From positions 1-64,000 of the forward strand of contig NZ_WSTA01000004.1 of the NCBI RefSeq assembly GCF_009789225.1: a DNA stretch of 64,000 bases, read 5' to 3'. The notes under the pieces are model-generated. The model worked only from the letters and a program-made list of their open reading frames with translations, did not search any database and had not been told where the DNA came from. This document shows positions 3,399 through 45,294 of this stretch, one piece after another. Source of the stretch: Agromyces seonyuensis (lineage in GTDB: Bacteria > Actinomycetota > Actinomycetes > Actinomycetales > Microbacteriaceae). The first letter of the stretch is position 1. Each line of letters begins with the position of its first letter. The position numbers and the translations under genes are program-made.

Positions 3399-5240
3399 GT
3401 GACGCTCAAGCAGATTCTCGCCGTGATCTGGCGCGCGAAGTGGATGGTCCTCGCGATCGTCGCGGTCTCCGTCGGAGTCTCGTGGTACGTGGTGAGCCAG
3501 GAGCAGGCGGTCTACTCGTCCTCGACCACGATCCGCCTCAGTTCCACGATGGCCGATGCCGCCGAATCCAGCGAGTTGTACGGCGTCGTCGTCGACGTCG
3601 ATCCGACCGTGATCACGACCGACCTCGTACTCGGTCCGGCCTCCGACGCCCTCGGCGTCCCGCAGCGCGAGCTCGCCTCGACGACGACGGTGACGCTCGG
3701 CGACACGTTGTCCGCGATCATCACCATCGAGACGACCGCCGACTCCCCCGCCGCCTCGCGCGCCCGCGCGGACACGATCGCGAAGTCGTACGACGAGTAC
3801 CTGCAGTCCGAGACGGCGCGCGTGCTCACGGTGCTCCAAGAGCAGCAGGCCGCGGCGCAGCAGGCCGCGATCGACGCCGAGAAGGCTGCGACGGCCGCAC
3901 CGGACAGCGCCATCGCCCAGACGCAGCTCGTCACCGCGATCGGCGCGAACCAGACCGCGAAGCAGCAGGTCACCGACCTCACGGCCGACCCGCCGCCCAC
4001 CAAGACGCTGTTCGCGGCGGAGCCCGGCGTGCGTCTCGGCACCTCGCCGCTCACGATCATCCTCATCGCCTTCGCCGCGAGCCTCATCGCCGCGATCGGC
4101 ATCGCCCTCGCCCGCGACCAGTTCGACAACCGACTGCGCGGCGAAGAGGAGATCGAGGACCTGACGTCGCTACCGTCGATCGGCGTCCTGAGCCTCGACC
4201 GCGGTGTGGCGCGCGCCCAGGAGCGGCTGCCCGCCGCGAGCCGACGACGAACCGCCATCAGCGAAGATCTGCGCGCCCTGCGCACGTCGCTCCAGGTGGT
4301 GCTGCCGCGCCGACGCGGCATCCTCGTCATCACGAGCGTCGAGCCCGGCGACGGCAAGACCTTCATCGCCGCGAACCTCGCGCTCGCCTGGGCCCGCGCC
4401 GGCCGCAAGGTCGTGCTGGTCGCCGGCGACCTGCGCCGTCCCGCACTCGACGAGTACTTCTCGGTGGTCTCCGGGCTCGAGGGACTCGCCGACCTGCTCG
4501 ACCCCGAACTGCGGGACGAACCCCTCACGGGCGAGGCCGTGCTCAAGCTCCTCGCGCCGAGCGGGCACCCCAACCTGCTGATCCTGCCGCCCGGCGCCGA
4601 GCCGATCGACCCCGCCGATCTCCTGGCCGGTCCCGACCTCTCGACCGTGTTCGCCGCCCTGCGCGAGGCCGCGGACATCGTCATCGTCGACTCGCCGCCG
4701 GCGATGGCGATCACGGACGCGAGCCTCTTCGCCGGCCACGCGGACGGCGTGCTCGTCATCGCCTCGGTCCGCCGCACGGATCGGGCTCACCTGACCCGCA
4801 CCGTCGACACGCTGCAGGCGAACGGGGCGCCGCTGCTCGGCGTCGTGGTCAACCGCGCCAAGCGGCGCGTCCCGAAGTCGTACTCGCCGTACTACGTGCA
4901 ACGCAGCCAGACCGCCGGCGACCGCCGTGCGGCGATGGCGCAGGCCGCGACCGCACCGGAACCCGAGATCGACGAGCACGACGCGCTCCCCGAAGAGCCC
5001 GAGTCGGAGACGACGGCCGCCCCCACGCCGCCGAAGTCGTCCGCGCCGAAGGACTCCCGTCCGTCGGGCCCGGGCCGCACGAGCGCCGAACGCGGCGGCA
5101 CCGGCCGGCCGGGCACGGTCCGGTCGGGCAGCGATCGTCCGGGATCGGATCGATCGAGCTCGCGCAGCCCGTTCTCGGAACCCGAGGGTTCGGGTGACGA
5201 CCGCAGCCAGGACGGCCAGGCGCTCCGTCGCACGTGGTGA
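3399..5240 (+). CDS. Wzz/BY-type tyrosine autokinase fusion
   Basis: The 613-residue protein fuses a chain-length co-polymerase to a bacterial tyrosine kinase. Residues about 1-230 are the Wzz domain, with one membrane helix at about 12-32, an extracellular coiled-coil segment (LQEQQAAAQQAAIDAEKAA) and a second helix at about 208-230 (SPLTIILIAFAASLIAAIGIALA). The kinase domain has Walker A with GDGKT (Lys about 320), Walker A-prime VVLVAGDLRRP and Walker B DIVIVDSPP. Only three tyrosines (about 495, 498, 499, in SYSPYY) occur near the C-terminus. They are followed by about 110 tyrosine-free residues rich in Pro, Ser, Gly and Arg. Start is GTG 3399 after GAGGG. It is coupled to the phosphatase downstream and likely controls polymer length and export. 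Confidence 0.9.
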   Translation: MTLKQILAVIWRAKWMVLAIVAVSVGVSWYVVSQEQAVYSSSTTIRLSSTMADAAESSELYGVVVDVDPTVITTDLVLGPASDALGVPQRELASTTTVTLGDTLSAIITIETTADSPAASRARADTIAKSYDEYLQSETARVLTVLQEQQAAAQQAAIDAEKAATAAPDSAIAQTQLVTAIGANQTAKQQVTDLTADPPPTKTLFAAEPGVRLGTSPLTIILIAFAASLIAAIGIALARDQFDNRLRGEEEIEDLTSLPSIGVLSLDRGVARAQERLPAASRRRTAISEDLRALRTSLQVVLPRRRGILVITSVEPGDGKTFIAANLALAWARAGRKVVLVAGDLRRPALDEYFSVVSGLEGLADLLDPELRDEPLTGEAVLKLLAPSGHPNLLILPPGAEPIDPADLLAGPDLSTVFAALREAADIVIVDSPPAMAITDASLFAGHADGVLVIASVRRTDRAHLTRTVDTLQANGAPLLGVVVNRAKRRVPKSYSPYYVQRSQTAGDRRAAMAQAATAPEPEIDEHDALPEEPESETTAAPTPPKSSAPKDSRPSGPGRTSAERGGTGRPGTVRSGSDRPGSDRSSSRSPFSEPEGSGDDRSQDGQALRRTW

Positions 5241-5854
5241 ACGCCGGCGGCGGGCGATCGAGGCGCGGGGAGGCCCGCGTCCCGGTCCCCGCGCGCCCCG
5301 TCATCCTCTTCGTCTGCACGGCCAACCAGTGCCGCTCTCCCCTCGCCCGCGCGATCGCCGAGGCGCACGCCGAGGGCATGCCCGTCGAGTTCGACTCGGC
5401 GGGCCTGCTGCGCGGCGGCGCCCCGATGCCGCGCACCGGGCTCGAGGTGGCCGCCGAATCGGGCCTCGACCTCAGCGAGCATCGCAGCCGGCGTTACGAC
5501 CGGGCCGAGGTCGCCCACTACGACCTCGTGCTCACGATGACGCGCGAACAGGCCCGGGAGATCCTCGCGGAGAGCCCGGAACTCTGGCCGCGGGTCTTCA
5601 CGCTCAAGCAGTTCACGCGATGGGCCGACGGCCGCCGCTTCCCGAAGCATGCGGACCTCTCGGGATGGATCGACGCCGCGGCGGCGGACCGCCAGCGCAC
5701 CGAGCTGCTCGGCTCCGATCCCGTCGACGAGATCGTCGACCCGGTCGACCAACCGGTGAAGGTCTGGCGGCAGGTCGCCGAAGAGCTCGAGGACCACGTC
5801 GACCGGCTCCTCGCCTTCGTCGCCCCGCGTCGCGGGCGCCGACGCCGGGTCTGA
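5234..5854 (+). CDS. Low-molecular-weight protein tyrosine phosphatase
   Basis: The product is about 206 residues. The catalytic P-loop is CTANQCRS (C-X5-R-S, Cys about 28), preceded by VILFVCT. The C-terminal DPVDEIVDP segment supplies the general-acid Asp of the family. The N-terminus is extended by about 20 residues before the fold begins. Start is GTG 5234 or GTG 5237, both overlapping the kinase stop codon, so translation is coupled. Such phosphatases dephosphorylate the partner BY-kinase (Wzb/Wzc-type pairing). Confidence 0.9.
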   Translation: MVNAGGGRSRRGEARVPVPARPVILFVCTANQCRSPLARAIAEAHAEGMPVEFDSAGLLRGGAPMPRTGLEVAAESGLDLSEHRSRRYDRAEVAHYDLVLTMTREQAREILAESPELWPRVFTLKQFTRWADGRRFPKHADLSGWIDAAAADRQRTELLGSDPVDEIVDPVDQPVKVWRQVAEELEDHVDRLLAFVAPRRGRRRRV

Positions 5855-5869: not shown

Positions 5870-7066
5870 TCAGGCGGCGGCGCTCGGGTCGTCCGCGATC
5901 GCCGGCTCGGTGCGCTCCGCGGGCAGGTGCACCGCGGCACCCGTGACCTCCGTCGCTGCCGCGACCGGCGAAGCGGCGACGCCCATCCACGAGGCGATCT
6001 TCGCGCCGAATCCGCTGCCGTCGAACTCCCACGCCCGCGCTCGGCACGCGGCAGGGTCGGCTGTCGCGGCGACCTCGATCGCGCGGCGGAGCTCGCCGGC
6101 GTCCTCGCCGCGCAGGTGCGCTCCGGTGAGCCCGTCCTGCACCGTCTCCGCGGCGCCGCCCACGGGGTTCGTGATCACCGGCGTTCCGGCCGCGAGCGCC
6201 TCGACCGGCATGATGCCGAAGTCCTCGATCGGCGCGAACACGTAGACGAGTGCGCGGCGGTAGAGCTCGTGGAGCAGGGCGTCCGAGGGCCGGTCCACGA
6301 AGAAGACCGCACCGGGATGCGTGGCTGCGACCGCCTCGAGCCGGGGTCGGTCGGGTCCGTCACCGGCGAGGACGACCGGCAGGCCCGCCGCACGGCCCGC
6401 CTCGATCACGAGGTCGAGCCGCTTGTAGGGGACGAAGCGCGAGGCGCCGAGCACGAAGGAGTCCGGCAGTGCGGCGAGGGTCGCCTCGTCCCGGAGGCTG
6501 AGGGTCTCTCGCGCGCCGGCGATCGCGGCGACGTCGACCGGCGGGTGGATGACGGTGCTCTCACGTCCCCAGGCACGGGCGATCCGCTCGGCGACGAAGC
6601 GGCTGTTCGCGGCGATCGACGTCGCCTCCTGGGCCCGGGCGCGGTCGATGCGTCGCAGGGACGGCGACACCGCGCGGCCGACGACGCCGCTGCCGCGGCC
6701 GTCGAGGTCGGGCTCCCAGATGTAGCGGGCGGGGGTGTGCGCGTACACGAACTTGGGCACGTCCCGATCCGCGAGCGTCGCGTGGTGCGCGAAGAGGTGG
6801 CTCGACACGAGCAGCCAGTCGGCGTCGGGGTGGACGTCGATCCCGCGCCAGGCGCCGAGCATGAACGGCATCGCGAGCGCCTTGCGGCGGCGCAGCGGCG
6901 TCTTGGCGAGCCACGTCTGATGGAGCCGGCCGGGCGCGAAACGGTCGTCGACGTCGTCCCACGCGCAGAGGACGGGGGCGTCGGGGAAGGCGTCGGCGAG
7001 GCCGTGCAGCACGCGTTCCGCACCGCCGCGCGGCTCGAGCCATTCATGGACGATGAGGCCGCTCAT
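5870..7066 (-). CDS. GT4-family glycosyltransferase
   Basis: The 398-residue GT-B glycosyltransferase opens with the EPRGGAERVL acceptor-domain motif and carries YAHTPARYIWEP. Its C-terminal donor domain has ASRFVPYKRLDLVIEA and the E-X7-E motif in EDFGIMPVEALAAGTPVI. It probably adds one sugar to the lipid-linked repeat unit on the cytoplasmic face. The start is ATG 7066. A 15-codon leader ORF ends 10 nt upstream. It converges with the phosphatase gene. Confidence 0.9.
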   Translation of the reverse strand: MSGLIVHEWLEPRGGAERVLHGLADAFPDAPVLCAWDDVDDRFAPGRLHQTWLAKTPLRRRKALAMPFMLGAWRGIDVHPDADWLLVSSHLFAHHATLADRDVPKFVYAHTPARYIWEPDLDGRGSGVVGRAVSPSLRRIDRARAQEATSIAANSRFVAERIARAWGRESTVIHPPVDVAAIAGARETLSLRDEATLAALPDSFVLGASRFVPYKRLDLVIEAGRAAGLPVVLAGDGPDRPRLEAVAATHPGAVFFVDRPSDALLHELYRRALVYVFAPIEDFGIMPVEALAAGTPVITNPVGGAAETVQDGLTGAHLRGEDAGELRRAIEVAATADPAACRARAWEFDGSGFGAKIASWMGVAASPVAAATEVTGAAVHLPAERTEPAIADDPSAAA

Positions 7067-7192: not shown

Positions 7193-7228
7193 CATCCAGC
7201 CGGGATGCGGGATGCACTCGGCCGCGGA

Positions 7229-10200
7229 TCAGGATACGACCCCGCGAGCCCCCTCGATTTCGCCCAGGACGGCCGCCATCGCGGCGGCCCGTTCGGACCA
7301 GTCCGGGACGTCGTCGAACTCGAGCGACGGCGTCCCCGCGAGCGCCGACCGCACCACTGCCGACGTGAACCCGTCCCCCGATGCGACGACGAGACCGGGC
7401 TCCCCGTCGGCCTCGACGAAGCCCGCGACCGGTGCCGCCACGACCGGTCGTCCGGCGGCGCGGTACTCGTAGCGCTTGATCGGGTCGAGGCTGCCCGTGA
7501 ACTCGTCGACGAGGTGCGGCACGACGAGCACCTCGGCGTGCTGCAGGTACGCCGCCACGGCGGATCCGGGCCGCGACCCGAGGAGCCGGATGCCGGCCTC
7601 GACCTCGAGCCGTGCCCGGTTCGCCTCGCCGAGGGCGACGGGGCCGAGCAGCACCAGAAGCGCGCCGGCCGCAGCGAGCGCGCGACCGGTCTCCACGACC
7701 AGGTCGACGTCGAGCCGGTCCTCGTGCAGGGTCCCCGCATACAGGGCGACGGGCCCGTCCGGCAGGTCGGCCGGGCGGGAATGCGGCGTGCGGGCGCGTG
7801 CGAGGTCGACGGCGTTGGCGATGAGCCGCACCGGCCGGGATGCGCCCTTGCTCGCGACGAGCGCGGGCGAGCAGACGACGACCGCCTCGGCCTCCGCGAC
7901 GAGCGCCGCGTCGCCGTCGAGCAGTCGGGCGCGCTCGCGCGGCGGCCGATCGGCGAGGGTCCAGTCGTCGGTCACGTCGTAGAGCGTCGACCAACCGGTC
8001 TCGGCCCGCAGCCCGGCCCAGCGCGGGTCGTTGATCCAGAGCAGGGGCCGTACCGCCCCGAGGCGGCGGACGACGCGGCGGACCGAACGGCGCAGCAGGC
8101 GGTCGGCGAGCGGGCCGGCCGCGCGCGGCAGCCACTTCGTGGGCTCGAACGCGCGCAGACGCCCGGCGTAACCGGGGATCGACCGCACGCCGCTCCCCGT
8201 GCGGGGACGACGGCCGGACCGGGCGTCGTGCGCGGGGTCGACCGGCGGCTCGACGAAGAGCACCGAGAGGTCGGGGTCGGCGCGCAGCAGCCCGTCGACG
8301 AGGTACTGGTTGCGTCGCCAGACCTCGTCCCACGCCTCGAGCGAGACGACGACGAGGAGACGCCCGACGGCATCTGGCTCGGTGCGGGCGAACCCGGCGA
8401 GCGCCTCGGCCAGTCGCTCGCCCTGGCGGCGGGCGTCGAAGGCCTCGCGCTGGCGTTCGCGGAGTGCGGCGCCCGCGGCGTCGCGCGCCGGTGCGGAGCC
8501 GATGAGCCGCTCGAGGGCGCGGGCCGCGGCGACGGCGTCGTCCGGTGCGAACAGCGCCGCGGCGTCGCCCGCCGAGCCCGCAGTCTCGAGGTGACCGCCG
8601 CCCGCGGCGGCGACGACCGGGAGCCCGTGCGACATCGCCTCGAGCACCGAGAACCCGAAGGGCTCGGCGGGCGCCGTCGCGAGGAACACGGAGGCTTCGC
8701 GGAAGCGGGTATCCATGTCGGCCTGGAATCCGACGAAGTCGACGGAGCCGGCGATGCCGAGCCGGTCGGCGAGCTCGCCGAGCGCCGCACGCTCGGCGCC
8801 ATCGCCTGCGAGCACGAGCCGCCACTCGCCGCGGTCCGCGACGAGCGCCCAGGCTTCGAGCGCGAGCGCGGTGCGCTTCTCCGCCTCGAAGCGCTGCGCG
8901 ACGAGCACGCTCGCCGAGCGCCGCTCGCCGTCGTCGTCGAGCGACGGCACGCCCGGCGCGATGACACGGGACGCTCCTTCGACGCGGTCGGCGATGAACC
9001 GCGCGCCCGCGATCTGCCCCGCGAGCCGGCCGGCGATCCACCGACCGGCGATCCGACCGAGCGCGTTCGATCCCCGCGTCGCCGCGAAGTGGCGCACGCT
9101 CACCACCGGGATGCCGCGACGTGCACCGAAACGGCAGGCGACGAGGTCGGCGGCGGTCATGTGGGAGACGAGCAGGTCGAGCCCGCCGAGGCGGCCGAGC
9201 GCGGCGTTCGCGGCCGGGAGCGTCGCACCGGGGAGCCAGCGGACGCCCGCCGCCTCGAGCGGCCCCCGCATCCGCCGTTCCTCACCGCCGACGACCGCGA
9301 CGTCGTGGCCGGCGGCGCGCTGAGCGAGCGCCACGCCGAGTACGTACCGCTCGGTGCCGGCGAAGGCGTCGGTGACGACGACGTGCGCGGTGCGCGGGCG
9401 GCCGGGAGCAGTCTCCGCCGCGAGACGGGCGGCGCGTTCGGCGTCCTCGAGGGCCGCGACGGGACCGCGGGCGAAGAGGTCGCGGCGACGACGGGCCTCG
9501 GCGCCGCGCTCGCCCGGCAGCACGAGTGCGCGCGCGGCCGCGCCGAGGAGGTTGGCGAGCCGGTACGCCTGCCAGCCCGCGGCGCCGTAGTGCTTGCGCT
9601 GGTAGCGCTCGGCGCTCGCGTAGAAATGCCGTTCGCGGACCGCCGGATCGCCGCCGGTGCCCGCGCCCTCGTGGGTCGCCGACGTCGGCACGACGTCGAT
9701 GCGCCAGCCGGCGCGGCGCGCGCGGTACTGCCAGTCGGTCTCCTCGGAGTACAGGAAGAACCGCTCGTCGAGTCCGCCGAGGGCGTCGACCGCCTCGGCG
9801 CGCAGGAGCAGGGCCGAACCGATCGCGAAGCCCCATCGCCGACGCAGCCCGCCGAGCCCGAAGGCCTCGATCCACGCGCCGAGCGGGGTGGGGAACGGCC
9901 AGCGCACCCGCACCGGCTCGCCCGTCGCGGCGACGGTCTGCTCGGCGCCCACCGCGGCGGTGCGCGGCGCCGCGCGGAGCGCCGCGTGCATGCGCCGCAC
10001 GTCGTCGGGTCCGATCCGGGCATCGGGGTTCAGCAGCATAACGTCCCCGCCGAGCCCCGTCGCCCCGCTGAGTTCTGCGAGGCCGAGGTTCACGCCGCCC
10101 GCGAATCCGCGATTGCCGCCCGCGTCGAGGTAGCGCGCCCCGTGCGCCTCGGCGACGGTTCGGGTGCGCGGCTCCGAGGAGTTGTCGACGACGAGCACCT

Positions 10201-11401
10201 CGAAGGCGCCGTCGAGGGCGGCGAGGCAGCCGTCGAGCTCGTCCGGCGGGCCGTAGGCGACCACGACGATGCGAGGCGGGACGTCGGCCGCCGCATCGTC
10301 GGTGCCGAGCACCGTGCGGTAGAGCGCGGCCTGCTCCGCGGCGACCGACTCCCAGGTGAAGTCCGCGGCGTGCGCCGTCCCGGCCGCGCGAAGCTCCGAC
10401 CATCGGGCGAGCGCCTCGTCGAGCCCCGCGGCGAGCGCCTCCGGATCACCGGGCGGGACGATCACGCCCGCCGTCCCCACGACGTCCGGGATCGCACCCG
10501 AATCGCTGCCCACGACGGGCACGCCCGACGCCATGGCCTCGACCGCCACCCGGCAGAACTGCTCGAGCCAGGTCGGGGTCGGCAGGCTCGGCACGGCGAC
10601 GACGTCGAGGGCGCGGTAGCGATCGGCGAGTGCACCGTCGGCGGCGAAGCCGGCGAACTCCACCCTCTCGGCGATGCCGAGGTCCGCGGCGAGCCGCTCG
10701 AGTGCGGGGCGCTCCGGCCCGTCGCCCGTGATGACGAGGCGGCGACCCGGCCGCAGCGCGATCGCGCGCAGCAGCACGTCGACCCCCTTGTGCGCCTCGA
10801 GGCGCCCGACGTAGCCGACCACGGCATCCTCGCCCGGCGCGTCGCGGTCGGCGGGCGTGAAGACGTCGACGTCGACGCCGAGGGGGATGAGCCGCGCGGG
10901 TCCTGCCAGCCCCTTCTCGGTCAGGATGCGTCCCGCCTCCGCGTTGCAGACGTACGCGCCCGCCCCGTGACGGAGTGCTGACCGCTCGAACCAGCGGAAC
11001 GGCACCGGATAACGCTTCGCGAGGTTCTGCGCCGAGTACATGACGAACGGCGCCCGGATGCCGCGCAGGCGCATGAGCAGGCGCACCTCGGCGACCGCGA
11101 GCGAGTTCGGCTCCTCGTGCAGGTCGACGACGTCGGGACGTCCGGCGAGGGCGCGCCAGATCGGTCGCGGGTCGTAGAGGAAGACGCTCGGATGCCGGCC
11201 GAACGTGCGCGCCCCGCGCACCCACCGCGCGTCGCCGCCGGGGCGGAGATCGAGGTCGCGGCCGCCCTCGTTCCACCGCTTCGACGACACGAGCGCCACT
11301 TCGAGCCCCTGGCGGCGGAGCTCGCGCTCGCGCTCGCGCCACGCGTCGACGACGGCGTGGTGGGCGATCCGCAGGACGCGCAGGCGACGCGGGTCGGTCA
11401 T
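7229..11401 (-). CDS. Four-module glycosyltransferase megaprotein
   Basis: A single uninterrupted 1390-residue frame contains four glycosyltransferase modules. Module 1 (about 1-365) is GT4, with VVGYVGRLEAHKGVDVLL and FCRVAVEAMASGVPVV. Module 2 (about 376-625) is a GT2 rhamnosyltransferase-like GT-A domain with VVVDNSS-type LVVDNSSE, NRGFAGGVN, LLNPDA and EETDWQYRARRAGW. Module 3 (about 670-1005) is GT4, with EPFGFSVLEAMSHGLPVV. Module 4 (about 1012-1390) is a TuaH-like GT-B domain with NDPRWAG, YDVTDDW and DPIKRYEYRAAGRPVV. The start is ATG 11401, with GGAG 8 nt upstream, 19 nt after the preceding stop. No membrane span is seen. It could add several sugars processively. The modules would usually be separate genes. 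Confidence 0.85.
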   Translation of the reverse strand: MTDPRRLRVLRIAHHAVVDAWRERERELRRQGLEVALVSSKRWNEGGRDLDLRPGGDARWVRGARTFGRHPSVFLYDPRPIWRALAGRPDVVDLHEEPNSLAVAEVRLLMRLRGIRAPFVMYSAQNLAKRYPVPFRWFERSALRHGAGAYVCNAEAGRILTEKGLAGPARLIPLGVDVDVFTPADRDAPGEDAVVGYVGRLEAHKGVDVLLRAIALRPGRRLVITGDGPERPALERLAADLGIAERVEFAGFAADGALADRYRALDVVAVPSLPTPTWLEQFCRVAVEAMASGVPVVGSDSGAIPDVVGTAGVIVPPGDPEALAAGLDEALARWSELRAAGTAHAADFTWESVAAEQAALYRTVLGTDDAAADVPPRIVVVAYGPPDELDGCLAALDGAFEVLVVDNSSEPRTRTVAEAHGARYLDAGGNRGFAGGVNLGLAELSGATGLGGDVMLLNPDARIGPDDVRRMHAALRAAPRTAAVGAEQTVAATGEPVRVRWPFPTPLGAWIEAFGLGGLRRRWGFAIGSALLLRAEAVDALGGLDERFFLYSEETDWQYRARRAGWRIDVVPTSATHEGAGTGGDPAVRERHFYASAERYQRKHYGAAGWQAYRLANLLGAAARALVLPGERGAEARRRRDLFARGPVAALEDAERAARLAAETAPGRPRTAHVVVTDAFAGTERYVLGVALAQRAAGHDVAVVGGEERRMRGPLEAAGVRWLPGATLPAANAALGRLGGLDLLVSHMTAADLVACRFGARRGIPVVSVRHFAATRGSNALGRIAGRWIAGRLAGQIAGARFIADRVEGASRVIAPGVPSLDDDGERRSASVLVAQRFEAEKRTALALEAWALVADRGEWRLVLAGDGAERAALGELADRLGIAGSVDFVGFQADMDTRFREASVFLATAPAEPFGFSVLEAMSHGLPVVAAAGGGHLETAGSAGDAAALFAPDDAVAAARALERLIGSAPARDAAGAALRERQREAFDARRQGERLAEALAGFARTEPDAVGRLLVVVSLEAWDEVWRRNQYLVDGLLRADPDLSVLFVEPPVDPAHDARSGRRPRTGSGVRSIPGYAGRLRAFEPTKWLPRAAGPLADRLLRRSVRRVVRRLGAVRPLLWINDPRWAGLRAETGWSTLYDVTDDWTLADRPPRERARLLDGDAALVAEAEAVVVCSPALVASKGASRPVRLIANAVDLARARTPHSRPADLPDGPVALYAGTLHEDRLDVDLVVETGRALAAAGALLVLLGPVALGEANRARLEVEAGIRLLGSRPGSAVAAYLQHAEVLVVPHLVDEFTGSLDPIKRYEYRAAGRPVVAAPVAGFVEADGEPGLVVASGDGFTSAVVRSALAGTPSLEFDDVPDWSERAAAMAAVLGEIEGARGVVS

Positions 11402-11420: not shown

Positions 11421-12572
11421 TCAGGCGGGGTCGAGGGCCGACTCGAGGATGCCGCGCAGCGTCGTCCACGACCACCCCCAGTCGTGGGCGAGCGCTCGCT
11501 CGCGCGCCGCGCGCTGCAGCGCGCCCAGGCGCTCCCGGTCGTCGGCGAGTCCGGCGATGACGTCGGCGAGGGCGTCGGCGTCGCCCGGCTCGACGAGCAC
11601 GCCCGCGTCGCCGAGCAGCTCGGGGATGCCGCCGACCCGGCTTGCGACCACGGCCGCGCCGCTCGCCATCCCCTCGCCGATGGTGAGCGGGCACGGGTCG
11701 GCCCACTGCGAGGGCACGACGAAGACGTCGGCACTCGCGAGCAGCGCGGGCAGCGCGTCGCGGTCGACGAACGGTTCGAACCGGATGCCCGGGGCATCGC
11801 CCGCGAGGTCGCGGAGACCGCGTTCGTAGTCGGAGAGGTCGTCGCCCGCGGCGAATCCGCGGCTGCCCACGAGGACCACCTCGACGTCGGCGCGGTCGAG
11901 GCGGCGCGCCGCCCGCACGAGGGTCTCGGCGCCCTTGTCGGGGATCATGCGCCCGACGAAGCGCACGCGGAGCGGGCCGACCGGGCGCGCGTCCGCAGGC
12001 GCGAAGCGCTCGGCATCCACGCCGTTGACGACGACGTGCACGCGCTCGGCGAGCTCGGGCGGGAGCTGCGCGCGGTAGCTCGCCGCGAGGGCCTCGCTGA
12101 CGCAGACGATCGCGGCGACCTCGCCGAGGCTGCGTCGCATCTCGGCCCGGCTCATGGTGCGCAGGAGCTCGTTGTGCGCGTAGAGCACGACCCGGTGACC
12201 GGTGCCGCGGAGGAGTTCGGGCAGGATCGGCGCGTTGTGGGCGAGCACGATCGAGGGCGGCCGGGCCGCGATGGCGTCGGCCTGCGGCGCCCAGTACCGA
12301 CGGGTCGCCGAGCGCGGCATGCCGAGGCGCGCGAGCCCGAGCTCGATCGCGCGCTCGCGGCCGCTCGGCGCGCCGGTGCCGACGTACTCGACGATCTCGG
12401 CGCTCGGGTAGCGCGGGCGGAACGTCGACGCGTCGATCGCCACGGACTGGCGACCGCCGTCGGGATCGCGTTCCGCGGCGCGCGCGAGGCCGTCGACGAC
12501 GGTCGGCACCGCCGAACCGGTGCGCGGGGAGTAGTGGTCGCCCGGGGTGATCGCGTGGATGACCGGGATCAC
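11421..12572 (-). CDS. GT4-family glycosyltransferase
   Basis: The 383-residue GT-B enzyme has an N-terminal HAITPGDHYSPRTGSAVPTVV segment. Its donor domain has VRFVGRMIPDKGAETLV and DPCPLTIGEGMASGAAVV (E-X7-E-like). The GTG start at 12572 overlaps the stop of the upstream Wzy-like gene (GTGA), giving translational coupling. It forms one operon with the membrane protein before it and the multi-module protein after it. Sugar specificity cannot be read from sequence. Confidence 0.88.
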   Translation of the reverse strand: MIPVIHAITPGDHYSPRTGSAVPTVVDGLARAAERDPDGGRQSVAIDASTFRPRYPSAEIVEYVGTGAPSGRERAIELGLARLGMPRSATRRYWAPQADAIAARPPSIVLAHNAPILPELLRGTGHRVVLYAHNELLRTMSRAEMRRSLGEVAAIVCVSEALAASYRAQLPPELAERVHVVVNGVDAERFAPADARPVGPLRVRFVGRMIPDKGAETLVRAARRLDRADVEVVLVGSRGFAAGDDLSDYERGLRDLAGDAPGIRFEPFVDRDALPALLASADVFVVPSQWADPCPLTIGEGMASGAAVVASRVGGIPELLGDAGVLVEPGDADALADVIAGLADDRERLGALQRAARERALAHDWGWSWTTLRGILESALDPA

Positions 12573-13936
12573 GACGAAGCGCCGTCGCTCGGTCGTCCCG
12601 CTCGGGCCGCGATCGGCCGTCGTCGTCCCGTCGGCGGTCCTTGCGCCGCCGCTTCGGCGAGCGCGACGCGATCGATGCCGAGGGCGCGGTCCCGCTCGCG
12701 GACGCCGTAGCAGATCCCCGCGATGATCCAGAGGAGCGAGGCCTGGCCGGCCACCCAGTAGAGGTCGAACTGCGCCTGCACGAACCTCGTCGCGATGATC
12801 GCGACGCCCACGGTGCCGTAGACCGGGTCCATGCGCAGCAGCAGCCAGGCCGCCGCGGCGAACATCACGAGGAAGCCGATGAGCCCGACGACGCCCGTCG
12901 TCGTGAGCACTTCGAGCTCCGCGTTCGGCGGCTGGAACTTCTCGGGGAAGCGATCGGTGTACCACCAGCGCATGCCGACGCCGAAGAGCGGCGAGGTCAT
13001 CCAGATCCGCACCGACTCCTCGTACCAGCTCACGCGCTGGTTCGCGGAGTTGTACTGATTGCCGGACGCGAGCTGCTCGTTGACGTTGGCGAGCACGAAG
13101 ACGGATGCCGCGGCGCCGAGGAGCACGAGGAAGATCACGCGCCCGCGCTTGACGGCGCGGAGCCGGGGTCGGGCCGCGACGATGAAGATGCCGACGAGGG
13201 CGCCGATGATGGCCTGACGCGACTGCGCCGCGAGGATGCCGCCCGCGCAGATCACGGCGATCGTGTAGGCGAATCGCCGGCTCCAGGACAACCACACGGG
13301 TCGGGCGCACGCGATGACGAGCGCCGCAGCGAGCATCCCGCCGATCGTGTTCTTGTGGAGGCCCGGGAGGAAGACGGGCACCGTGAACAAGGACGGGAGC
13401 GCGACGACGACGGCGGCGACGCCGATCGAGGCGCACACGAGGCAGTAGATCGTGATCGCCAGCGACCCCTTGCCCTCGCGACCGAGCGCGAACCCGACGA
13501 CCATGCTGCCGAGGACGAGGACGACCTCGTGGAGCCACTCCACGAGGTTCGCGTCGTAGGGATTGAGGATGAGCGTCGGGACGGTCAGCGCGAGGTAGAC
13601 CGTGCCGGCCCAGATGAGCGGCTGCAGGGCGATGCCCCCGCGGCCGCGCAGGAGGAAGATGCAGATCGCGAAGGCGGCGGCGAGCACGAAGTCGGAGACG
13701 CTGAGCACCCCGCCGACGCGTTCCTGCACCAGAGTCGCCCCGAGCGCCAGCACGGGGATGACCATCAGGTCGAGGGCGCTCGCGCCGATGAGGAGCACGA
13801 CGAGGGCGATGGGCAGGGCCACGTCGGGCGCCTGCGCGCTGACGAACCCGAGCACGACGCCGACGCCCACGACCATCGCAGCAAGGGCGATCGGACTGCG
13901 GACGAGGGCGAGCTTCTCCCGGAATCCCCGCTGCAC
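12569..13936 (-). CDS. O-antigen ligase/polymerase-like membrane protein
   Basis: The product is about 455 residues with some 11-12 predicted membrane helices. A large extracytoplasmic loop (about residues 280-340, NVNEQLASGNQYNSANQRV to FGVGMRWWYTDRF) contains the RVSWYEESVRIWMTSPLFGVG signature of the Wzy_C/O-antigen ligase family. It should polymerise or ligate lipid-linked glycans outside the membrane. GTG 13936 is preferred because the -10 TATCAT (13948-13943) places transcription start at that codon; the frame is open further upstream to 14071. It is the first gene of a three-gene operon. Confidence 0.82.
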   Translation of the reverse strand: MQRGFREKLALVRSPIALAAMVVGVGVVLGFVSAQAPDVALPIALVVLLIGASALDLMVIPVLALGATLVQERVGGVLSVSDFVLAAAFAICIFLLRGRGGIALQPLIWAGTVYLALTVPTLILNPYDANLVEWLHEVVLVLGSMVVGFALGREGKGSLAITIYCLVCASIGVAAVVVALPSLFTVPVFLPGLHKNTIGGMLAAALVIACARPVWLSWSRRFAYTIAVICAGGILAAQSRQAIIGALVGIFIVAARPRLRAVKRGRVIFLVLLGAAASVFVLANVNEQLASGNQYNSANQRVSWYEESVRIWMTSPLFGVGMRWWYTDRFPEKFQPPNAELEVLTTTGVVGLIGFLVMFAAAAWLLLRMDPVYGTVGVAIIATRFVQAQFDLYWVAGQASLLWIIAGICYGVRERDRALGIDRVALAEAAAQGPPTGRRRPIAARAGRPSDGASS

Positions 13937-14125: not shown

Positions 14126-15252
14126 ACGTCTCGATCATCGTCCCGACGTTCAATGAGGGCCCGAACATCGCCGAGCTGCTGCGTCGGATCGCGGCCGTCC
14201 TGCCCGCCGACTCGTACGAGGTCCTCTTCGTCGACGACTCCACGGACGACACCCCGGCGATCGTGACCGCGTGCGCCGCGGAATCCGAGGCGCCGGTCCG
14301 GCTCATCCACCGGGATGCTCCCGACGGCGGGCTCGGCGGTGCCGTGGTCGAGGGGCTCGCCGCGGCGCGGAACCAGTGGTGCGTCGTCATGGACGGCGAC
14401 CTCCAGCACCCGCCGGAGGTGCTGCCCCGGCTCATCGAGCGCGCCGGCCAGGGCGACGCCGACGTCGTCGTCGCCTCCCGCTACGCCGCCGGGGGCACGT
14501 CCGCCGGCCTCGCCGGGTGGCTGCGCACGGCGGTCTCCCGGCTGTCGACGCTCGTCACGAAGGCCATGTTCCCGGTGCGGTTGCGCGCCTGCTCCGACCC
14601 GATGACCGGGTTCTTCCTCGTCGACCGCGACGCGGTGCGCTCCGAGACGCTGAAGCCGCGCGGGTTCAAGATCCTGCTCGAGATCCTCGCCCGGGCCCGC
14701 TACCGCGTCGCCGAGGTGCCCTTCGATTTCGCCGAGCGCTTCGCCGGCCGGTCGAAGGCGTCGTTCCTCCAGGGACTGCGCTTCCTGCTCCAGCTCACGA
14801 TGCTGCGCTTCGGCCGGATGTCCGGGTTCGCCGTGATCGGCGCGATCGGCGCCGTCGCGAACCTGCTGATCATGGCCGGCCTCCAATCGCTCGGCCTGGA
14901 CTACCTGTGGGCGGCGATCATCGCGAGCGAGATCACGATCATCGGCAACTTCCTGCTCATCGAGCACTTCGTGTTCGCGGACCTCCGTTCGCACGCGAGC
15001 GCGACGTGGTCGAGGTTCGCGAAGTCCTTCGCCTTCAACAACGCCGAGGCGGTCATCCGCATCCCGGCCATGTCGCTGCTCATCGAGGCGACCCACATCC
15101 CCTCGGTGCTCGCAGCGGCGATCACGCTCATCATCGCGTTCGTGGTCCGGTTCGTCTTCCACTCGCTCGTCGTCTACGCGCCGAAGCACCTCGAGGACGC
15201 CGCCGCCGACCCCGCCGCGACGTCGGCCGCACGGGTGCGCACCGTCGACTGA
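14122..15252 (+). CDS. Polyprenyl-phosphate GT2 fused to GtrA domain
   Basis: The 376-residue protein has an N-terminal dolichyl-phosphate-mannose-synthase-like GT2 domain (about 1-225), with IIVPTFNEGPNIAELL, VLFVDDSTDD, VVMDGDLQHPPE and SDPMTGFFLVDR. The C-terminal GtrA domain (about 230-350) has four membrane helices. GT2-GtrA fusions make and flip polyprenyl-phosphate-linked sugars that feed extracytoplasmic glycosyltransferases such as the GT87 protein encoded at 18752. ATG 14122 has AAGGA 8 nt upstream. It is divergent from the wzy-like operon. Confidence 0.9.
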   Translation: MNVSIIVPTFNEGPNIAELLRRIAAVLPADSYEVLFVDDSTDDTPAIVTACAAESEAPVRLIHRDAPDGGLGGAVVEGLAAARNQWCVVMDGDLQHPPEVLPRLIERAGQGDADVVVASRYAAGGTSAGLAGWLRTAVSRLSTLVTKAMFPVRLRACSDPMTGFFLVDRDAVRSETLKPRGFKILLEILARARYRVAEVPFDFAERFAGRSKASFLQGLRFLLQLTMLRFGRMSGFAVIGAIGAVANLLIMAGLQSLGLDYLWAAIIASEITIIGNFLLIEHFVFADLRSHASATWSRFAKSFAFNNAEAVIRIPAMSLLIEATHIPSVLAAAITLIIAFVVRFVFHSLVVYAPKHLEDAAADPAATSAARVRTVD

Positions 15253-15256
15253 CGGC

Positions 15257-15300
15257 CCCCGTTCGCGGTCCTGCGGCGACGAGCACGACGCCTCTACCAT
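15257..15300 (+). promoter_or_regulatory. Polysaccharide-regulon promoter (GT2 gene 15343)
   Basis: CCCCGTTCGCGGTC (15257-15270) is centred 31-32 nt upstream of the -10 TACCAT (15295-15300). The short leader contains a start-stop ATG-TGA at 15326-15331 just before the AAGGA ribosome site. Confidence 0.55.
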
Positions 15301-15342
15301 GGGGACCACCTCGAACCCGGCCCCGATGTGAAGGATCCACGC

Positions 15343-16374
15343 ATGGGCGATTCCCCCGCACCGCTCGTCTCGGTCGTCATCCCCGCCTACAACGCCGAGC
15401 GCACGATCGGCGAGACCCTCGCCGCCCTCGCCGCGCAGCGCCTCGATGCGCCGTGGGAGATCCTCGTGTGCGACAACGGCTCCAGCGACGACACGGCGGG
15501 CGTGATCGACGAGTGGCGCGACCGGCTGCCGCCGGTGACGATCGTGGATGCCTCGCACCGACGCGGTCCGTCGGCGGCGATGAACACGGGCGCGCGCACG
15601 AGCCGCGCCGAGTTCCTCGTCTACTGCGACGCCGACGACGTCGTCGCGGACGACTGGCTCGAGACCTTCGTCGAGGCGCTCCGCACGACGCCCTACGTCG
15701 GCGGGCACGTCGAGTACGACCGCCTGCGCGCCGAGGGCAGCATCTCGGTCAGCTGGAACGACGCCGGCCCCTTCGTCTTCACCCTCCCGGCGATGCCCGG
15801 CCTCGCCGCGACCGGGTCGGGCAACTTCGGCATCCGCCGCGACCTCTACCTCGAGGTCGGCGGGTTCGAGGAGGCGCTCGAGAGCTGCGAGGACGCGGAC
15901 TTCTCGTGGCGCGTGCAGCTCACGGGCGCACCGCTCGTCATCTGCGACACCATGTACCACGTGCGCACGCGGCAGTCGCTGCGCTCGATCGCCCGTCAGG
16001 GCTATCACTGGGGCGCGTACCAGCCGACCCTCCGCCGTCGGTGGGCGCTCGTGGCCGCCGCCGTCGCGGACGACGCGGCCGCGGCCCCCGCAGCGGCGGG
16101 CACGGCCGCGTCGAGCACGCCTCCCGCGGAGGCCGAGCGGCGTCCCAATCCGATCGTCCGCTACTCCCGCACGATCGCCCGCCGCATCCGCGAGGGCCGC
16201 GTCCGCTCGCTCGCCGCGGACGTCACCTGGCAGACCGCGCACCGCCTGGGCCGCACGTTCGGCAAGGTCGACGAGTCGGTCGAGCAGATCCCCGCGTCGC
16301 CCGCGATCGCCGCCCGGGTGCGCGAGCTCCGCGCCGACCCGTGGCGCACGGCCGGGTCCGAGCGCACCGTCTGA
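15343..16374 (+). CDS. GT2-family glycosyltransferase
   Basis: The 343-residue GT-A enzyme has VVIPAYNAERTIGETLAAL, VCDNGSSDDT, the DXD-type YCDADDVV and the acceptor motif ESCEDADFSWRV. An Ala-rich linker near residues 245-265 is followed by a basic helical tail (RTIARRIREGRVR) that may touch the membrane or partner enzymes. ATG 15343 has AAGGA 8 nt upstream; GTG 15328 in the same frame is less likely. It is a single-gene unit with its own regulon promoter. Confidence 0.9.
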   Translation: MGDSPAPLVSVVIPAYNAERTIGETLAALAAQRLDAPWEILVCDNGSSDDTAGVIDEWRDRLPPVTIVDASHRRGPSAAMNTGARTSRAEFLVYCDADDVVADDWLETFVEALRTTPYVGGHVEYDRLRAEGSISVSWNDAGPFVFTLPAMPGLAATGSGNFGIRRDLYLEVGGFEEALESCEDADFSWRVQLTGAPLVICDTMYHVRTRQSLRSIARQGYHWGAYQPTLRRRWALVAAAVADDAAAAPAAAGTAASSTPPAEAERRPNPIVRYSRTIARRIREGRVRSLAADVTWQTAHRLGRTFGKVDESVEQIPASPAIAARVRELRADPWRTAGSERTV

Positions 16375-16382
16375 ACGACCAG

Positions 16383-16398
16383 CCCGTCGGTCGACGGG
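16383..16398. terminator. Short hairpin between convergent genes
   Basis: CCCGTC-GGTC-GACGGG gives a perfect 6-bp stem between the stops at 16374 and 16439. There is no U-tract, so termination is only inferred from position. Confidence 0.3.
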
Positions 16399-16438
16399 AC
16401 CGTGGGCGACCCCTCGCGGCGGCAGCGGTGAACCGAGC

Positions 16439-17398
16439 TCAGCCGGCGACGGTCGCGTCGGCGCGCACCGCGGAGCGCCCGGTGCGGGCGGACTCGAGCG
16501 CCGCCTCGACCGCGGCGAGCGCCGCGGTTCCCTCCTCGAGCGTCGCGATCGAGCTCGGGAAGCCCGCGATCGCGTCGCGGAACGCCTCCAGCTCCGCGCG
16601 CAGCGGTTCGGCGTCGCCGACCGGCAGCGGGCTCGTGGCGCGGCCGTCCGCCGCGCGCACGCCGAGCGTGCCGGCCGCGGTGTCGGCCACGAGCACGCCC
16701 AGCTCGCCCGTGACGATCAGCAACCGTTCCCGTACGGGGCTGATCCAGTTCGCCGTCGCCTGCACGCGCACGTCGTCGCCGAGGAGACCGTCGACGACGA
16801 GCACGTCCTCGTGCGGATGTCCCGCCGCCCGCAACGACCGTGCCGAGATCGGCCCCCAGGCACCCCCGCCGAGCCACGCGGCCAGGTCGAGGTCGTGGAC
16901 GGAGAGGTCCTTGCCGACGCCGACGTCGCGGATGCGCGCGGGGTACGGCGACTGGCGGCGCGCCTCGATGCGCGTGATGCGGCCGAGGCGGCCCGCGGCG
17001 AGCTCGGAGCGCAGCGCCGCGACCGCCGGGTTGAAGCGCTCGACATGGCCCACCGCACCGACGACGCCCGTCGCTGCGGCCGCCGCGGCGAGCCGCAGCC
17101 CGCCTTCGACGGTCTCCGCGACGGGCTTCTCGACGAGGAAGTGCACGCCGGCCTCGGCGAACTGCCGGCCGACCGGCTCGTGGGCGGCCGTCGGCACGGC
17201 GATCACGGCCGCGTCGATCCCGACGGCGAGCGCGTCGTCGACCTCCTCGAGTACCTCGAGCCCGCCCGCGACGCCGTAGGGATCGCCGCCGCGGTCGACG
17301 ATCGCGACGAGCTCGAGCCCGTCGATCTCGCGCAGCAGCCGGGCGTGATGCCGGCCCATCGCGCCGATGCCGACGAGGGCGACGCGGAGCGCGCTCAC
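16439..17398 (-). CDS. Gfo/Idh/MocA-family sugar oxidoreductase
   Basis: The 319-residue protein has the Rossmann motif VGIGAMGRHHARLL and the family signature FLVEKPVAETV with the catalytic EKP lysine. GHVERFNPAV and the KDLSVHDLDLAAWL segment, which carries the active-site Asp/His region, follow. It probably oxidises or reduces a nucleotide-sugar (WbpB-like). Start is GTG 17398, overlapping the aminotransferase stop (GTGA). The two together suggest synthesis of an amino sugar for the polysaccharide. Confidence 0.9.
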   Translation of the reverse strand: MSALRVALVGIGAMGRHHARLLREIDGLELVAIVDRGGDPYGVAGGLEVLEEVDDALAVGIDAAVIAVPTAAHEPVGRQFAEAGVHFLVEKPVAETVEGGLRLAAAAAATGVVGAVGHVERFNPAVAALRSELAAGRLGRITRIEARRQSPYPARIRDVGVGKDLSVHDLDLAAWLGGGAWGPISARSLRAAGHPHEDVLVVDGLLGDDVRVQATANWISPVRERLLIVTGELGVLVADTAAGTLGVRAADGRATSPLPVGDAEPLRAELEAFRDAIAGFPSSIATLEEGTAALAAVEAALESARTGRSAVRADATVAG

Positions 17399-18516
17399 GC
17401 GCCCGCCCCCGCGACCGCGGCGACCGCGGCCGCGATGCGCTCGAGATCGTCGGCGCCGACCGAAGGATGCACCGGGAGGGAGACGACCTCGGCGGCGGCG
17501 AGGTCGGTCTGCGGCAGGTCCGCACCGGCGTGCTCGCGGAGCGAAGGGAGCCGGTGCGCCGGGATCGGGTAGTAGACGCCGCTGCCGACGCCGTGCTCCT
17601 CCCGGAGCGCGGCGACGAACCCGTCGCGGTCCTCCGGCACCCGGATCGTGTACTGGTGGTAGACGTGCGTCGCCTCCGGCCGCACGGCGGGCGTCGTGAC
17701 GATCCCGGCGAGCGCGGCGTCGAGGAACGCGGCGTTCGCGCGCCGCTGCGCGGTCCAGGCATCCACCTTCGTGAGCTGCACGCGCCCGATCGCCGCATGG
17801 AGGTCGGTCATGCGGGCGTTGAAGCCGACCACCTCGTTCTCGTACTGCCGCTCCATGCCCTGGTTGCGCAGCAGCCGTACCCGGCGGGCCGACTCCTCGT
17901 CGGCGAGCACCACCATGCCGCCCTCGCCCGCGGTCATGTTCTTGGTCGGGTAGAGGCTGAACATGCCGCCGTCGCCGAACGTGCCGACCGGGGCACCGCC
18001 GAGGGTCGCGCCGTGGGCCTGCGCCGCATCCTCGAAGACCCTGAAGCCGTGCTCGCGCTGCAGTGCGGCGAGCGCTGCCATGTCGGCCGGCTGGCCGAAG
18101 AGGTGCACCGGCACCACCGCCGCGGTGCGCGGCGTCAGGAGCGCGGCGACCGCCTCGGGGTCGATGCAGAACGTGACCGGGTCGATGTCCGCGAAGACCG
18201 GCGTCGCGCCCGCGAGCACCACGGCGTTCGCCGTCGCCGCGAACGTGAACGAGGGCACCACGACCTCGTCGCCCGGCCCGATGCCGATCGCGAGCAGCCC
18301 CAGGTGCAGGCCGGAGGTCCCGGAGTTGACCGCGACGACCGGCCGGCCCGGCGTGAAGCGCTCGGCGAACTCCCGCTCGAACGCCGCGACCTCGGGGCCC
18401 TGCGCGAGCATGCCGGAGGCGAGGACGCGGTCGACGGCGGCGCGTTCCTCCTCGCCGATCAGGGGCTTGGCGACGGGGATCAGGTCGAACTGGCGGGCGT
18501 CCGGCTGCAGGGTCAT
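17395..18516 (-). CDS. DegT/DnrJ/EryC1/StrS sugar aminotransferase
   Basis: The 373-residue PLP enzyme has VNSGTSGLHLGLLAIGIGPG, DEVVVPSFTFAATANA, VFEDAAQAHGA and the Schiff-base lysine in YPTKNMTAGEGG (about residue 192). It transaminates a keto-sugar nucleotide. ATG 18516 lacks a clear ribosome site. A 17-codon ORF ends on it (ATGA), so coupling to a leader is plausible. The promoter is at 18577-18620, and the gene overlaps the oxidoreductase by 4 bp. Confidence 0.92.
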   Translation of the reverse strand: MTLQPDARQFDLIPVAKPLIGEEERAAVDRVLASGMLAQGPEVAAFEREFAERFTPGRPVVAVNSGTSGLHLGLLAIGIGPGDEVVVPSFTFAATANAVVLAGATPVFADIDPVTFCIDPEAVAALLTPRTAAVVPVHLFGQPADMAALAALQREHGFRVFEDAAQAHGATLGGAPVGTFGDGGMFSLYPTKNMTAGEGGMVVLADEESARRVRLLRNQGMERQYENEVVGFNARMTDLHAAIGRVQLTKVDAWTAQRRANAAFLDAALAGIVTTPAVRPEATHVYHQYTIRVPEDRDGFVAALREEHGVGSGVYYPIPAHRLPSLREHAGADLPQTDLAAAEVVSLPVHPSVGADDLERIAAAVAAVAGAGA

Positions 18517-22270: not shown

Positions 22271-23479
22271 ATGCGCGAGACCGCGATCACCGTCGAGGGC
22301 CTGTCGAAGACGTACCGGCTCAACCGGAATTCGGCAGGCGTCGACCGCATCACCGATGCGGTGTGGAACCGGATCAAGCATCCGTTCGCCCGCGCCGAGT
22401 ACGACCACTTCGACGCACTGTCGGACGTCGACTTCGAGGTGCCCTGGGGCGAGGCGCTCGGCATCATCGGCCGCAACGGCGCCGGCAAGTCGACCCTGCT
22501 CAAGCTGCTCACGCGCATCACCGCGCCGACGACGGGCCGCATCGACCTCGGCGGCCGCGTCGGCTCGCTGCTCGAGGTCGGCACGGGCTTCCACCCCGAG
22601 CTGACCGGTCGCGAGAACATCTTCCTCAACGGCGCGCTGCTCGGGATGACCCGCGGCGAGATCCGCCGCCGCTTCGACGAGATCGTCGATTTCTCGGGCG
22701 TCGAGCGCTTCCTCGACACCCCGGTGAAGCGCTACTCCTCGGGCATGTACGTGCGGCTGGCGTTCTCCGTCGCGGCCCACCTCGACACCGAGATCCTGGC
22801 GATCGACGAGGTGCTCGCCGTCGGCGACGCCGAGTTCCAGGCGAAGTCGCTCGCGAAGATGCGCGACGTCGCCAAGGACGGCCGCACCGTCCTGTACGTC
22901 AGCCACCAGATGCAGACGGTGACGAACCTCTGCACCTCGGCCATCTACCTCGACCGCGGCACCCTCCAGTACCAGGGCAGCGTCAACGGGGCCCTCGAGG
23001 TGTACCGCAGCAGCTTCGAGCGCTACCAGGCGACCCAGCGCGAGCCCGACAACCGGGCCGGCACCGGCCAGCTGCGGCTCCAGGACGTGACGCTCGGGGA
23101 GCTCACCCAGTCGCCGACCGACGACACCATCGTCGAGCTGGCCCTGCCGGCGGCCCCCGACCTCATCGGCGACTACTTCCTCTCGTGCCACATCAACGAC
23201 CAGAACGGCGTCGTCATCGCGCAGTGCGATTCGCGCCTGCTCGGCCGTTGGCTCGACCCGTCGCGCCCCCACGACGTGACGCTGCGGGTCCGCAACCTCT
23301 GGCTGAAGCCCGGCACCTACTCGGTCGACGTCTACGTCTGCCAGATGGGCATCCTGGATGCCTGGGAGGGCGCGGCCGCCTTCGACGTGCTGCCCTCGCT
23401 CCCCTACCCCGAGCTCACCTCCGAGGACGCGACCGCCAACGGCATCGTCCTCGCCGATTTCGACTTCGAGGTCGACTGA
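22271..23479 (+). CDS. Polysaccharide ABC exporter ATPase (Wzt/TagH type)
   Basis: The 402-residue protein has Walker A GRNGAGKSTLLKLL, signature YSSGMYVRLAFS and Walker B ILAIDEVLAVGD, with the GTGFHPELTGRENIFLNG segment typical of O-antigen/teichoic-acid exporters. Residues about 260-402 form a C-terminal Wzt-type beta-sandwich domain (YFLSCHINDQNGVV, LKPGTYSVDVYV). In related exporters this domain recognises the finished glycan. ATG 22271 is the first gene, and its TGA overlaps the permease ATG by one base (TGATG). Confidence 0.92.
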   Translation: MRETAITVEGLSKTYRLNRNSAGVDRITDAVWNRIKHPFARAEYDHFDALSDVDFEVPWGEALGIIGRNGAGKSTLLKLLTRITAPTTGRIDLGGRVGSLLEVGTGFHPELTGRENIFLNGALLGMTRGEIRRRFDEIVDFSGVERFLDTPVKRYSSGMYVRLAFSVAAHLDTEILAIDEVLAVGDAEFQAKSLAKMRDVAKDGRTVLYVSHQMQTVTNLCTSAIYLDRGTLQYQGSVNGALEVYRSSFERYQATQREPDNRAGTGQLRLQDVTLGELTQSPTDDTIVELALPAAPDLIGDYFLSCHINDQNGVVIAQCDSRLLGRWLDPSRPHDVTLRVRNLWLKPGTYSVDVYVCQMGILDAWEGAAAFDVLPSLPYPELTSEDATANGIVLADFDFEVD

Positions 23480-24297
23480 TGGCCCGCACGATCATCACCC
23501 CGCCCAAGGGACTCGGCCTGCCGTCGTTCCGCGAGATCTGGAGCGCTCGCGAGGTGCTCTGGCGCTTCGGAACGCGCGACATCCTGCTGCGCTACCGCCA
23601 GACGGTCGTCGGCGTTGCCTGGGTCGTCATCCAGCCGCTCGTGGGCGCCGGCATCTTCTCGCTCGTGTTCGGCGGCGTGGCGGGCCTGCCGAGCGGCGGG
23701 GTGCCCTACTTCCTCTTCTCCCTCGCGGGCCTGCTGTCGTGGAACCTGTTCGCGAGCGTCATCGACCGATCGGCCCCCTCACTGGTGTCGAACCAGGCGC
23801 TCGTCTCGAAGGTCTACTTCCCACGCCTGCTCGTGCCGGCCTCGACCGTGCTCTCGGTGCTGCTCGACACCGCGGTGGGCCTCGGTCTCTTCGTCGTGCT
23901 CCTCTTCGTCTTCGGCGTCAACCCCGGCTGGCCCGTGCTGCTGTTCCCCGTCTGGGCCCTGCTCGCGCTGATGGCGGGCCTCGGCCTCGGCATGGCGGCG
24001 TCTGCGATCATGGTGAAGTACCGCGACGTCGGCTACGTGCTGCCGTGGGTCGTGCAGGTCCTCTTCTACGCGACCCCGGTCGCCTACGCGCTCGAGGGCG
24101 CTCCGGCCGACCTGCGCTGGCTCTTCGAGCTCAACCCGCTCACGTGGATGATGGAGGCCTTCCGCTGGTCGATGCTCGGGCTCGACGCGCCGCCGCTCTG
24201 GCAGATGGGCGGATTCGCGCTCTTCGCGGTGCTCCTGCTCGCCCTCGGCCTGACCGTGTTCCAGCGGTACGAGCGCACGTTCGCCGACGTCATCTGA
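23479..24297 (+). CDS. Polysaccharide ABC exporter permease (Wzm/TagG type)
   Basis: The 272-residue protein is an ABC-2 permease with six predicted helices. The N-terminal cytoplasmic part contains WRFGTRDILLRYRQTVVGVAWVV, the polysaccharide-exporter signature. Later segments VKYRDVGYVLPW and FYATPVAYAL are also characteristic. With the ATPase it should move the lipid-linked glycan across the membrane. Start is ATG 23479 in a TGATG junction. Confidence 0.92.
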   Translation: MARTIITPPKGLGLPSFREIWSAREVLWRFGTRDILLRYRQTVVGVAWVVIQPLVGAGIFSLVFGGVAGLPSGGVPYFLFSLAGLLSWNLFASVIDRSAPSLVSNQALVSKVYFPRLLVPASTVLSVLLDTAVGLGLFVVLLFVFGVNPGWPVLLFPVWALLALMAGLGLGMAASAIMVKYRDVGYVLPWVVQVLFYATPVAYALEGAPADLRWLFELNPLTWMMEAFRWSMLGLDAPPLWQMGGFALFAVLLLALGLTVFQRYERTFADVI

Positions 24298-41063: not shown

Positions 41064-45134
<4,071 letters not shown>

Positions 45135-45220
45135 GACGCGGTCCTTCTGCGGGCGCGCGGCAACCGGCACCGGAATGCAGCCGGGTGCCTGCGCGGATCG
45201 GGCGGATTGGGAGAAATGCC

Positions 45221-45241
45221 TCAGGTTAGGCTTGGCTAAGC
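45221..45241 (-). promoter_or_regulatory. DtxR/IdeR-type iron box at the htaA-type gene promoter
   Basis: TCAGGTTAGGCTTGGCTAAGC resembles the DtxR consensus (TTAGGTTAG-S-CTAACCTAA). The minus-strand -10 TAACCT (45228-45223) lies inside it, so iron-loaded repressor would block the promoter. Confidence 0.75.
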
Positions 45242-45270
45242 TAAACGACATTCCCCCCGAAACGCAAGCC

Positions 45271-45291
45271 GTAGGTAAGGCTAACCTCATC
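45271..45291 (+). promoter_or_regulatory. DtxR/IdeR-type iron box at the hmuT promoter
   Basis: GTAGGTAAGGCTAACCTCATC matches the DtxR consensus well. The -10 TAACCT (45282-45287) is inside the box and lies 7 nt before ATG 45295, which suggests a leaderless, iron-repressed transcript. Confidence 0.85.
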
Positions 45292-45294
45292 ACG

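Follow-up and report, generated by a model that had tools for sequence, protein, structure and literature searches.

The central question raised by this locus is whether a single gene near one end of the window (the 64,000-nucleotide stretch of Agromyces seonyuensis DNA analysed here) encodes four consecutive glycosyltransferases (GTs), and, if it does, how such a gene arose and what its product may do. An unbroken frame of 4.17 kb had been reported in an earlier note, and this is accurate: 1390 codons extend on the minus strand, which the note did not specify, from an ATG at 11401 to a stop codon ending at 7229 (both coordinates exact), within a stop-to-stop frame of 1571 codons and inside a contig of 80,974 bases. 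The stop codon of an upstream GT4 gene precedes the ATG by 19 nt, and the third-position G+C of the four-module gene stays at 0.88-0.94 in all of its 100-codon blocks. The length of the frame is by itself weak evidence for a gene at the G+C content of the window, because the longest stop-free frame in 40 simulated first-order Markov sequences of 64 kb had a mean of 690 codons and a maximum of 1093, and because an ORF of 1258 amino acids (7205-10981, plus strand) lies antisense to the gene. This antisense ORF is probably a by-product of the high G+C content. It is homology over all four modules in many genomes that, at the level of sequence comparison, establishes the 1390-codon frame as a gene. 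The explanation that we regard as probable is that it encodes a natural four-module glycosyltransferase (11401..7229, minus strand; identified by Pfam and homology), which would have arisen when a two-module GT4-GT2 gene was fused with two neighbouring GT genes.

The four modules, here called A to D, are all encoded on the minus strand. Module A (residues 1-372; 10286..11401) is a GT4 enzyme according to Pfam (domains at residues 27-339), PDB relatives, a structural model and an EX7E motif at residues 280-288, and module C (residues 666-1002; 8396..9406) was assigned to the same family from Pfam (residues 683-984), PDB relatives and an EX7E motif at residues 913-921; in both cases the Pfam match is above the cut-off. 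Module B (residues 373-665; 9407..10285) belongs to GT2, as indicated by Pfam (residues 379-621; PF00535 with 38.9 bits versus a cut-off of 23.3), the model and conserved columns. It has the motif LLNPDA at residues 456-461 and long C-terminal helices (586-664), and a search for PDB sequence relatives at E<=0.01 returned none; the nearest named NCBIfam model is GlfT1/rhamnosyltransferase (TIGR01556), with a score far under its curated cut-off. Module D (residues 1003-1390; 7232..8395) was recognised from its model, Foldseek and a profile search. The model of the C-terminal 405 residues (986-1390; mean pLDDT 89.2, pTM 0.85) adopts the two-Rossmann GT-B fold, the leading Foldseek matches include MshA (3c4q_A, TM 0.66/0.68) and sucrose-phosphate synthase (6kih_A, TM 0.64/0.65), and the profile search points to the same two proteins. 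TuaH is the nearest named NCBIfam model for this module, but the score of 29.1 bits against a cut-off of 550 places module D outside TuaH proper. In the model of A-B (residues 1-670; pLDDT 87.8, pTM 0.59), a GT-B domain is connected through a short weak linker (369-371) to a GT2 domain, which is followed by the long C-terminal helices; the Foldseek list of this model is made up of GT-B proteins, corresponding to module A. Structure prediction, proposed earlier as a check of the module boundaries and run on A-B and D, thus recovers a GT-B domain plus a GT2 domain, and then a GT-B domain. Joint modelling of C and D was abandoned, as rows of C had aligned to D.

To place the gene among its relatives, we compared loci from other genomes. 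Matches at E<=1e-60 occur in at least 24 of 60 genomes of the genus, at least 13 of 299 of the family and at least 11 of 99 of the order (each count including the own genome), with the best 2, 6 or 10 candidates scored per genome, depending on the search; one exact-peptide-pattern scan of genome contigs gave 35 loci. The comparison is based on 46 relatives, defined as loci with all four modules inside one fetched stretch. Set apart from these were the copies L022 (of L083), L023 (of L085) and L086 (of L024), with other copies possibly remaining; L027, L033, L035, L036 and L041-L056, nearly all of which were without at least one module among the hits; and G014, G078, G079 and the genomes from a later search, which did not enter the comparison as long stretches. 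When a conserved column is defined as one with the same residue in at least 95% of the 46 relatives, the window matches 92 of 94 such columns in A, 74 of 75 in B, 42 of 47 in C (departing from five) and 90 of 93 in D (departing from three). Judged by these alignments, the strongly conserved residues are nearly all kept in the four modules. The polypeptide thus has more than the two GT domains that define a multi-module glycosyltransferase, and the earlier claim of four GT modules in one protein is upheld by Pfam, the models, homology and these largely retained residues.

The arrangement of the modules differs among the relatives. All 46 have A and B in a single frame; B and C are additionally joined in three (L081, L082 and L083, i.e. 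ABC|D), C and D in one (L084, AB|CD), and all four modules in none of the 46. Split versions, for which a search of related genomes had been recommended, are accordingly the rule, with the modules distributed over more than one gene in 46/46. C and D elsewhere are separate genes, frequently with overlapping stop and start codons, and in L024, L025 and L057 the AB, C and D genes are consecutive and overlap in this way. The fusion state varies even among near relatives, as L085 (AB|C|D) stands beside L081-L083. The module order GT4-GT2-GT4-GT-B, considered unusual in the earlier note, is confirmed, and the loci read contain no other complete fusion of four modules, but partial fusions at its junctions are known in relatives. 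Two genomes (G139 and G346, open frames of 1423 and 1436) were considered as carriers of four-module frames and rejected, as the DNA shows a stop between C and D and both are ABC|D; the open-frame length figures for relatives run through stops, and the figure of 1376 for G395 is identical to that of G045, which is AB|C|D.

Some loci display further arrangements. The gap between the end of the AB frame and C measures 2.27-2.44 kb in the 20 own-genus rows. In L059, this stretch is occupied by a GT4 gene and by another GT4 domain that is joined to C, giving a 738-aa GT4-GT4 fusion (L059:9446-11662) with module C as its second half. In the own-genus locus L058 (6709-9870), the AB frame carries a third module of the GT4 type, making a GT4-GT2-GT4 protein of 1053 aa according to Pfam; the AB frames of L064, L067 and L093 are also long (Pfam was applied to L058 only). 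A, B and C are separate genes in different frames, with A on the other strand, in an Acidimicrobiaceae MAG (L042:5285-8476), and the joining of A and B may therefore itself be a derived fusion. The C-D fusion of L084 has an in-frame GTG at its junction, so that translation of D might also begin independently at that point. At the AB/C junction of the same locus (minus strand), the beginning of the C-D gene carries roughly four 15-base tandem repeats, and each of them contains an overlapping stop and start (ATGA); these repeats may be prone to slippage.

The junctions in the window bear on two ways in which the single frame could mislead. Codon scanning of the B/C junction (residues 636-690; 9331..9496, minus strand) showed residues 636-680 to be free of ATG, GTG, TTG and stop codons in every frame. 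At the C/D junction (residues 990-1020; 8342..8434, minus strand; codon scan and model), stops are absent in all frames and the sole start is an out-of-frame ATG near residue 1010, with disorder predicted for the linker (about 1001-1011) in the model of D. According to the earlier note, a homologous locus with the same sequence in separate genes would indicate a sequencing error here. Such loci do exist, in every one of the relatives with all modules, but they do not imply an error, since start/stop overlaps are absent from both junctions in the window and other genomes have partial fusions at each of them. We hold it to be very improbable that a sequencing or assembly error fused truly separate genes: the separate C and D genes of relatives, lying in other frames, and the lone out-of-frame ATG would agree with it, but both junctions would have to be wrong, B/C offers neither a start nor a stop in any frame, and fusions at either junction are present in other assemblies. 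Moreover, a single frame shift would not yield a normal pair of coupled genes, because the other two minus-strand frames continue past both junctions (ending at 9282 and 9157 past B/C, and at 7972 and 7146 past C/D). It also appears improbable, if less so, that the fusion protein is cleaved, or internally translated, into separate enzymes. In-frame GTG codons at residues 627 and 690 and the predicted disorder of the linkers would favour it, but C usually starts at neither of these GTG positions, no in-frame start exists at residues 628-689, and D has none between residues 924 and 1046.

The history of the fusion was approached with a quick tree (47 rows, 1364 columns, without bootstrap; the groups tested were chosen after the tree was seen). 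The window groups with seven rows (L024, L081-L085 and L087; SH-aLRT 99), away from the 20 own-genus rows, and a constraint uniting it with its own genus is rejected (p-AU 1.3e-64), so that the simplest reading is an acquisition of the locus by horizontal transfer. Constraints placing together the four B-C-joined rows (p-AU 7.9e-8) or the two C-D-joined rows (p-AU 0.0027) are likewise rejected; as far as this tree can be relied upon, a single origin of the fused forms is rejected. The minimum numbers of changes on the tree are at least three for B-C and at least two for C-D, the forks inside the group of the window being poorly resolved.

The surroundings of the gene are those of a polysaccharide cluster. 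Two more GT4 genes flank the fusion, one downstream (5870..7066, minus strand; Pfam) and one upstream (11421..12572, minus strand; Pfam and motif), the latter adjoined by a gene for an O-antigen ligase family (Wzy_C) protein (12569..13876, minus strand; Pfam 47.5 bits, cut-off 31.7). Profile matches further identify a polysaccharide tyrosine autokinase with a weak Wzz domain (3399..5240, plus strand) and a low-molecular-weight protein tyrosine phosphatase (5234..5854, plus strand), and the cluster also has two GT2 genes. Gfo/Idh/MocA oxidoreductase and DegT aminotransferase genes (16439..18516, minus strand; profile matches), overlapping by a few bases, may provide a 3-amino sugar for the glycan; the oxidoreductase is nearest to UDP-GlcNAc 3-dehydrogenase in NCBIfam, with 194.9 bits, below the cut-off of 450. 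Genes for a Wzt-like ATPase (with a Wzt_C match below the cut-off) and a Wzm-like permease (22271..24297, plus strand; profile matches), about 11 kb from the fusion, represent an exporter of the kind that accompanies WbdA and WbbM. In stretches of about 20 kb, both Wzt and Wzm have homologues close to the modules in 7 of the 17 loci tested, and in none of the three own-genus loci among them. Homologues of genes on either side of the fusion also surround these modules in L057, L081, L083, L084 and L087. The three own-genus loci have hardly any match to the other genes of the cluster, and the pathway context therefore seems not to be common to all carriers of the modules. Searches of the own genome for a flippase of PF13440 or PF01943 gave no match. 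Contigs other than that of the window encode two PF02397 transferases, and the genome also has one MurJ along with a MurJ-family match that is weak (23.9 bits, under the cut-off; contig C131). A PF02397 initiating sugar transferase lies near this weak match (G000:C131, about 14484-17801; L101 and L107), in a region that is perhaps a second polysaccharide cluster.

For the fusion protein, the likeliest role, as predicted from its modules and neighbours, is to extend a lipid-linked surface glycan by several sugars in succession. It would thus be a multi-step glycosyltransferase for a surface polysaccharide, each module presumably being active and acting in sequential order on a lipid acceptor, and the fusion would fix the stoichiometry of the enzymes or pass the acceptor from site to site; relatives usually keep the two added GT genes separate, often translationally coupled. 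The earlier suggestion that a tetrasaccharide is built without release of intermediates is a possible prediction, given that the same modules operate as separate proteins in relatives and that two further GT4 genes flank the fusion. We regard as rather unlikely an assembly line in which four consecutively acting GTs lead one lipid-linked acceptor through four active sites, as the furthest point of repeated fusions affecting different junctions of one operon in Microbacteriaceae. Somewhat more credible, though still short of an even chance, is a neutral fusion, in which closely packed genes lost their stop codons with no effect on function, each module working just as it would as a separate protein. 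Separate proteins suffice in relatives, fusion states vary among close ones and the C/D linker is predicted to be disordered, all of which would suit neutrality, but the recurrence of fusions at several operon junctions might mean selection. The protein could alternatively be a processive polymerase of the WbdA/WbbM type, making a whole chain for Wzm/Wzt export instead of one repeat unit, as the Wzt/Wzm-like genes in the cluster and around the modules in other loci, and the missing PF13440/PF01943 flippase, would suggest. We find this rather unlikely: the O-antigen-ligase/Wzy-family protein and the Wzz-type kinase fit block polymerisation, a weak MurJ-family match is present on C131, and no protein of the WbdD kind, whether terminator or molecular ruler, was recognised among the scanned proteins of the window.

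Long proteins with several GT modules are listed in CAZy, so multi-GT-module proteins are known; what is unusual here is the degree of fusion, with four modules in one. The closest counterparts are the two- and three-module fusions of Microbacteriaceae (L081-L084), which have orthologous modules in identical order in a related cluster, but with only ABC or CD joined. WbdA, WbbM and WbbB of Klebsiella and E. coli O-antigen synthesis are characterised polymerases that each carry two or three GT modules and belong to pathways with Wzm/Wzt export (PMC11231755); likened by description, they share with the window protein multi-GT polypeptides in Wzm/Wzt pathways, but it has four modules. WsaE and WsfC from S-layer glycan clusters (PMC2943079) combine two GT domains with a methyltransferase or glycerophosphotransferase and, by description, resemble the window protein as large Gram-positive multidomain enzymes accompanied by wzm/wzt, but differ in this additional activity. 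The few phrases searched in the open-access literature returned no bacterial protein with four GT domains, which does not prove absence; the exact phrase 'four glycosyltransferase domains' led, in the texts retrieved, to human exostosins only. The natural series AB|C|D, ABC|D, AB|CD and ABCD offers orthologous modules for comparing how the joining of GTs affects the yield of polymer, the order in which sugars are added and the release of intermediates, and a four-step fusion, if working, would be useful for in vitro glycan synthesis.

Two other regions of the window deserve mention. The only match of a 1070-aa protein (30704-33916) is a weak discoidin-like one close to the C terminus, below the cut-off. 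Further on (41064-48463), a 1351-aa HtaA-domain protein is encoded beside a periplasmic-binding protein, a FecCD permease and an ABC ATPase, a cluster that probably serves haem uptake.
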